A stretch of DNA of 64,000 bases, taken from NCBI GenBank assembly GCA_944325885.1, contig CALVBT010000006.1:1-64000 (forward strand). Direction: 5' to 3'. This document shows, one piece after another, positions 41,910-43,003 of the stretch. The notes under the pieces are model-generated. The model was given only the letters and a program-made list of their open reading frames with translations. It had not been told where the DNA came from and ran no database searches. Source of the DNA: Candidatus Gastranaerophilales bacterium. GTDB taxonomy: Bacteria > Cyanobacteriota > Vampirovibrionia > Gastranaerophilales > Gastranaerophilaceae. Position 1 is the stretch's first letter. Every line of letters begins with the position of its first letter. Both the position numbers and the translations under genes were made by a program.

Positions 41910-42089
41910 TTAAAATAAAAACCCTATACAAGTACGATTTTGTTACCTGCGTGGCTCGCAGGTGGGTGAGTGCCTAGACTTTTCCGTTTCCTACTGGCGT
42001 ATAAAATACGGTAGGTATACTTCAAAGTTTTCGCGTCGCCTCTCCCGATAGTAAATAATGTAGGAACAAAATTAATACCTGTATAGAGT
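41910..42089 (-). ncRNA. Candidate 6S-like RNA
   Basis: Closing stem: CTATACA (41924-41930) with TGTATAG (42080-42086), and ATTTTGTT (41937-41944) with AACAAAAT (42065-42072). On the minus strand the 5' side of the central loop is unpaired and the 3' side carries a perfect hairpin ACCTGCG/CGCAGGT (41945-41963). The upper arm is GGGTGAG/CTCTCCC (41964-41970, 42040-42046), AGACTTT/AAAGTTT (41976-41982, 42024-42030) and CCTAC..CGTAT/ATACG-GTAGG (41990-42015). This long rod with a central bubble is the 6S RNA layout. The 3' end is GGGTTTTTATTTT. Sequence match to known 6S RNAs was not tested. Confidence 0.5.
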
Positions 42090-42095
42090 ATTAAT

Positions 42096-42124
42096 ATTTT
42101 ATACTTTTTTGTTATAATAAACAA
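42096..42124 (-). promoter_or_regulatory. Promoter of the 6S-like RNA
   Basis: On the minus strand TTGTTT (42119-42124), 17-base spacer, TAAAAT (42096-42101), giving a start near 42089, just before the closing stem. It overlaps the plus-strand TATAAT at 42113-42118. Confidence 0.5.
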
Positions 42125-42158
42125 GTGTTGCACATAAAAATCAGACAGGTGGTAAGGA

Positions 42159-42347
42159 ATGGATAAAATCACAATCAGATCGGACAGACAGGACGATTAC
42201 ACTTTTACTTATAGAGGAGAAGAGGTTGTCTTAAAAGCCGGTTCTATTTTGAGTATTGCAAACGGGCTGAACGATGTTGTTTTGCCGACTACGCAGATGA
42301 AAATAATGAACAACCTGATTGTTATAAAAGATTCTGTAAAAAAATAG
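42159..42347 (+). CDS. Small protein of unknown function, 62 aa
   Basis: AGGTGG and AAGGA precede the ATG. The sequence is soluble and mixed alpha/beta (ITIRSDRQDDYTFTYRGEE, VVLPTTQMKIMNNLIVI), with no Cys and no membrane segment. A strong terminator follows 14 bases after the stop, so it is a one-gene unit with its own signals, which supports it being real. Function unknown. Confidence 0.65.
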   Translation: MDKITIRSDRQDDYTFTYRGEEVVLKAGSILSIANGLNDVVLPTTQMKIMNNLIVIKDSVKK

Positions 42348-42448: not shown

Positions 42449-43003
42449 TTATGAATTGTCTTTAGGATAAAGATTGTCAACGAGGCTGGAGGGTTCGCTG
42501 TCAGAGTCTTCACTTCCGTAGAATACGCTCATAGAGCTGGGCTTGAAGGATTGGTATTCTGTTTTTAATTTCTCTTCATCTGCCTTGAGGCTGAAAGCCT
42601 GAATCTCCGAGTTTGTTACTCTGCCGTCTTTGTTTGTGTCAATCTGGTTGAAGTATGTTAAAACATTGCTGAGCATTTCGCTGTTGCCCATTCCGCTGGA
42701 ACACAGCTGGCAAAGCTCCTGATAGGATAGTCCGCTTTGGGATAGTTTGTTTGTGAGGTTGCTCATATCATCTGCACTGATTTTGCCGTCACCGTCTTTG
42801 TCTATAGCAGCAAAATTTGAGGACAAAAACTGTGCAAAGGACATGTTGCCGCCCAACTGCGCTATAGTTGTGTTTGAGGGGTTTGTGATATCTTCTATTG
42901 TCAAACCGCCTTTACTTGAGCTGTTTTGTGCAAGGATTGAATAAGTGTTTGACAACCCGCTCAGGGCGTTTGCAAACAGAGCCTGACCATTCATTAATGA
43001 CAT
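42449..43003 (-). CDS. EF-hand calcium-binding protein, 184 aa
   Basis: Two canonical EF-hand loops: DKDGDGKISADD (~77-88) and DTNKDGRVTNSE (~127-138), each with Asp at 1, 3, 5 and an acidic residue at 12. The rest is Ser/Asn/Gln-rich with no signal peptide; the opening MSLMNGQALFANALSGLSN is amphipathic. Likely calcium binding. The C-terminus is Ser/Asp/Glu-rich and disordered. AAGGAGA lies before the ATG. It forms a same-strand pair with the MGLAASQAR protein upstream, but a terminator lies between. Confidence 0.85.
   Translation of the reverse strand: MSLMNGQALFANALSGLSNTYSILAQNSSSKGGLTIEDITNPSNTTIAQLGGNMSFAQFLSSNFAAIDKDGDGKISADDMSNLTNKLSQSGLSYQELCQLCSSGMGNSEMLSNVLTYFNQIDTNKDGRVTNSEIQAFSLKADEEKLKTEYQSFKPSSMSVFYGSEDSDSEPSSLVDNLYPKDNS

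Follow-up and report, generated by a model that had tools for sequence, protein, structure and literature searches.

A 6S RNA gene missed at the Rfam cut-off in Gastranaerophilales, non-photosynthetic gut relatives of the cyanobacteria

The minus strand of a 64,000-nucleotide stretch of DNA from a Candidatus Gastranaerophilales bacterium (contig CALVBT010000006.1; ‘the window’ in what follows) carries an under-annotated, otherwise ordinary 6S RNA, in a non-photosynthetic gut relative of the cyanobacteria. 6S RNA is a widespread small RNA that mimics an open promoter and restrains RNA polymerase when nutrients are exhausted; it is a global regulator of transcription. Its Rfam family, RF00013, is known as SsrS, with the names SsaA, 6Sa and Yfr7 in cyanobacteria. 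The locus holds a conserved, structured, single-copy minus-strand RNA that is homologous to 6S RNA and is preceded by promoter sequence conserved in the genus. We infer that it is transcribed, that the RNA binds RNA polymerase, and that product RNA (pRNA) is made from it. 6S RNA itself is already known, and the value of the finding lies mainly in the fact that default annotation misses most of the order. The RNAs recovered there come from non-photosynthetic organisms and can be set against their cyanobacterial counterparts. Our literature search, to which this statement is confined, returned no paper pairing 6S RNA with Melainabacteria, Gastranaerophil- or Vampirovibrio.

The RF00013 search that the preliminary description of this DNA had proposed gave a full-length match. 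Within the 215-base stretch 41910–42124, the model aligns from position 1 to 187 of 187 with 41915–42094, scoring 40.5 bits (E 4.5e-7). This is less than the family's gathering score of 46.4, a threshold set by curators rather than a biological feature, and a default scan therefore misses the gene: at Rfam's default cut-offs only a tRNA is reported from the entire window. Across the organism's own genome (2.17 Mb), RF00013 matches this locus (E 7.8e-7) and, up to E 10, no other. The claim that no standard RNA family could be recognised thus holds at the Rfam cut-off and fails at the E-value threshold. ‘A diverged 6S or a new RNA’, the choice then offered, can be narrowed to the former: the RNA is diverged, being under the cut-off here and in most of the order, and a new RNA is not needed. 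Six further Rfam families were considered and rejected, with scores far under their own cut-offs and E-values of 1.1 or worse.

RF00013 detects homologous RNA in 151 of the 192 genomes sampled from the order, nearly always once per genome. The match is above the cut-off in 36; the other 156 have none at that level, and it is in these that the Rfam default misses the regulator. A covariance model built locally from 35 sequences of the order (R1) corrects this false absence. It scores the window locus at 159.2 bits, over the same 41915–42094, and finds the RNA in 186 of the 192 genomes, representing 44 of 45 genera, a count that is partly circular, as up to 35 of the genomes counted had supplied sequences to the model. 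With the RNA as query, BLAST gave hits in 26 of 40 relatives; of the 22 that belong to the same genus, 21 had it. The exception, G017, is rated 99% complete and is also one of the six genomes of the order in which R1 finds nothing. The gene often lies at contig ends (e.g. L020, L028, G113:C10:1-180 and G094:C11:17-198), and in G007 two different contigs have a match at their ends; some genomes that have no match, such as G017, may merely lack that piece of the assembly. In five genera (g16, g31, g36, g39 and g43) R1 matches are much weaker, with E-values from 1e-26 down to 1e-3, and RF00013 matches nothing in the listed genomes of g31 and g36. These five hold the order's most diverged 6S RNAs.

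At the level of the class, RF00013 finds the RNA in 57 of 97 genomes, in four of them above the cut-off. R1 was also applied to six genomes reached via named loci, and gave a strong match in two, a weak one in two and none in two. The strong matches are in a Galligastranaerophilus MAG (E 9.7e-28), at a place where RF00013 fails, and in ‘Candidatus Melainabacteria’ nzgw192 (E 4.8e-10), a genome outside the R1 set in which both models choose the same place. The weak ones (E 0.4 and 0.8) are in two other Melainabacteria genomes, neither of which RF00013 matches. R1 misses the 6S RNAs of Picosynechococcus PCC 7117 and Geomonas oryzae, both of which RF00013 finds, so it is RF00013 that links these RNAs to those of other phyla and of photosynthetic cyanobacteria.

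The stretch 41910–42124, read as minus-strand RNA, folds at −58.5 kcal/mol, and none of 200 dinucleotide shuffles is as stable (mean −38.6, sd 4.2; z −4.74). Folding energy cannot settle the strand, because 41913–42089 folds about equally well either way (−53.2 kcal/mol for the minus strand and −55.1 for the plus). Base-pair covariation was assessed in an alignment, A3, of 35 sequences from a pool of 53 (the window, L003–L024 and L029–L058); the 18 rows omitted are near-duplicates or close relatives, L020 lying also at a contig edge, and the fragments L025–L028 were not used. RNAalifold predicts 47 pairs from A3. The preliminary description had held that stems with no compensatory changes across relatives would tell against the RNA; in 27 of the 47 pairs both sides change while staying paired. 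Of all alignment cells, 93.9% can pair, compared with a mean of 79.3 in shuffled alignments, and the covariation score is 0.482 compared with 0.215; none of 500 shuffles is as high in either. The weakest measure is the count of pairs changed on both sides, which averages 22.9 in the shuffles and is equalled or exceeded in one of 500. Sliding the partners by 1–3 columns leaves 38–48% of cells paired, with scores of 0.07–0.13. Gathering by BLAST alone, without RF00013 (alignment A1, 23 sequences), gives 53 pairs, 11 of them changed on both sides. The strand is settled by counting: among 1643 cells, 1543 pair as minus-strand RNA, 188 of them as G-U, and 1370 as plus-strand RNA. The minus strand is the RNA, because the G-U pairs fit that strand only. 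Together with the full-length RF00013 match and the above-cut-off homologues in the order, these results bear out the 6S reading first put forward.

Every element of the plan originally proposed for an RNA of ~170 bases—closing stem, central bubble with one hairpin on its 3′ side, and a long upper arm—is present in the fold (Table 1), and the same plan is described for 6S RNA in PMC8876501. The closing stem comprises 15 pairs; in the corresponding A3 helices, 1 and 2, 9 of 14 pairs change on both sides. The A-U-rich helix next to the bubble has eight pairs and is comparable to P2, or the downstream duplex, of known 6S RNAs. In A3 (helix 3) its cells are 100% paired; five of its seven pairs are invariant, and the other two change on both sides. 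The 5′ side of the bubble is open, with a mean unpaired probability of 0.97. Changes on both sides occur in three of the six pairs of the 3′ bubble hairpin and in 13 of the 20 pairs of the apical arm. The likeness to the Rfam family thus takes in the full length of the model, the closing stem, the open bubble, the GGG/CACCC junction and the apical arm. The locus departs from the family in its closing stem, which is shorter than the consensus (gaps of 9 and 7 bases against the model), in its A-U-rich bubble-adjacent helix, and in its score.

Table 1. Coordinates of the 6S RNA, its promoter and parts, and the neighbouring divergent gene
Feature	Position	Strand	Basis or remark
−35 element TTGTTT, 6S promoter	42119..42124	−	sequence
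−10 element TAAAAT, 6S promoter	42096..42101	−	sequence
6S RNA (ssrS/ssaA type), ~177 nt	41913..42089	−	RF00013 and R1 matches; ends inferred
Closing stem, 5′ strand	42075..42089	−	fold; pairs with 41921–41935
Bubble-adjacent helix, 5′ strand AUUUUGUU	42065..42072	−	pairs with AACAAAAU at 41937–41944
Central bubble, open 5′ side, starting with conserved CCUACA	42047..42064	−	conserved A3 block
Apical arm, bubble-adjacent GGG/CCC to terminal loop	41964..42046	−	fold; A3 helices 4–8
3′-bubble-side hairpin (ACCUGCG...CGCAGGU)	41945..41963	−	fold; A3 helix 9
Closing stem, 3′ strand, then T tract	41921..41935	−	fold, sequence
Divergent −10 TATAAT, inside 6S promoter spacer	42113..42118	+	10/12 matches, TG before −10
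62-aa ORF, family unassigned, divergent from 6S	42159–42347	+	promoter overlaps 6S promoter

The minus-strand promoter sequence was found exactly where it had been claimed, with both hexamers and a spacer of 17 bases between them. It is kept within the genus: in the window and in 20 of 20 same-genus loci inspected, the −35 element is TTGTTT or TTGTTA and the −10 element TAAAAT or TAGAAT. Beyond the genus the −35 element is not conserved; by eye, many loci have a −10-like element, TATAAT or AATAAT, at the equivalent position. The RNA is taken to begin 7 nt past the −10 element and to end within the T tract. Most loci inspected by eye have a T-rich run 3′ of the closing stem, and the tract is probably where transcription ends.

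We are highly confident that the locus is this genome's one 6S RNA gene; binding, repression and release would then proceed much as in known 6S RNAs. The housekeeping-type promoter would produce a minus-strand RNA of ~177 nt, and this would fold into a rod whose open central bubble mimics a melted promoter. By analogy with known 6S RNAs, the rod would bind RNA polymerase in complex with the primary sigma factor, lowering transcription from housekeeping promoters as nutrients run short; upon recovery, the 6S RNA would be released as the polymerase copied a short product RNA from it. A binding partner exists, since the genome has four genes with a Sigma70_r1_2 domain (on G000:C1, C3, C4 and C7), presumably one primary sigma factor and three others. 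The likely template for the product RNA is the conserved CCUACA block together with the neighbouring strand AUUUUGUU. CCUACA is assigned as the start of the template by its position; the product would begin near GUAGGAACAAAA, by analogy with G, U or A as its first base, templated by 42060–42058. In Bacillus subtilis 6S-1 RNA, according to PMC8876501, the 3′ bubble side is already structured in the free RNA, and a collapse helix arises upon synthesis of the product RNA. The locus RNA is likewise predicted to have structure on the 3′ bubble side in its free form; unlike 6S-1, it gives no collapse helix in the minimum-energy fold when 9 or 14 presumed template bases are blocked. A speculative extension, which we hold to be less likely than not, is that the Gastranaerophilales RNAs are a distinct subtype of 6S RNA defined by a near-frozen UUUUGWUCCUWCA—possibly the product-RNA template plus the bubble-side helix—and a permanent 3′ bubble hairpin, with Bacillus-like release tuned by the A-U-rich helix. 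The role of the RNA may lie in recovery rather than in simple repression. PMC5721685 reports that SigA recruitment is slower in Synechocystis lacking 6S RNA, during recovery from nitrogen starvation; its authors suggest that 6S function is diverse among phyla.

Ms1, an RNA described from Actinobacteria, is structurally related to 6S RNA (PMC9130861) and binds core RNA polymerase that lacks the primary sigma factor (PMC4191392); shape alone cannot separate the two RNAs. A lineage-specific RNA of the Ms1 kind, 6S-like in outline and binding core rather than primary-sigma holoenzyme, would suit the score below the RF00013 cut-off. Against it stand the full-length match to RF00013 and the homologues in the order that exceed the cut-off. 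We found no sequence link between the locus RNA and Ms1, no Ms1 family came up when all of Rfam was scanned to E 10, in so far as Rfam includes one, and the host is no actinobacterium. We consider such an RNA very improbable.

The equal stability of the plus strand (−55.1 kcal/mol) would also be expected if the structure belonged to the plus strand, as leader or attenuator to the divergent 62-aa gene, or were a terminator acting in both directions. That reading is more improbable still and was rejected: the plus-strand promoter (42091–42118) transcribes rightward, away from the structure, the strand count with its G-U pairs contradicts it, and the 62-aa ORF is found only in the genus, the RNA throughout the order. 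Least credible of all, to the point of being negligible, is a coding function. An 82-aa frame is open on the minus strand at 41924–42172, but it has no Pfam match, and the gap between conserved motifs, 30–35 bases in 23 sequences, takes all three remainders of division by 3 (split 8, 8 and 7), so the reading frame would break. This, too, was rejected, and 6S RNA is the reading retained.

Among 53 loci searched, the 62-aa ORF accompanies the RNA in 20 from the same genus and in L082 (probably the same record as L008), at 87–100% identity, and in none outside the genus. The divergent TATAAT within the 6S promoter spacer is a probable part of that ORF's promoter, as judged from the sequence, and the two genes share a promoter stretch whose strong conservation within the genus may serve both. 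The eight best named matches of the neighbouring aroQ protein are all in Candidatus Gastranaerophilales MAGs (63–81% identity). One of them, L082, has the same RNA ~2.9 kb from aroQ, and is the only one of 26 other loci searched to show this synteny. Nearby, at 42449–43003 on the minus strand, is a gene for a 184-aa EF-hand protein (Pfam EF-hand families, E 1.2e-12).
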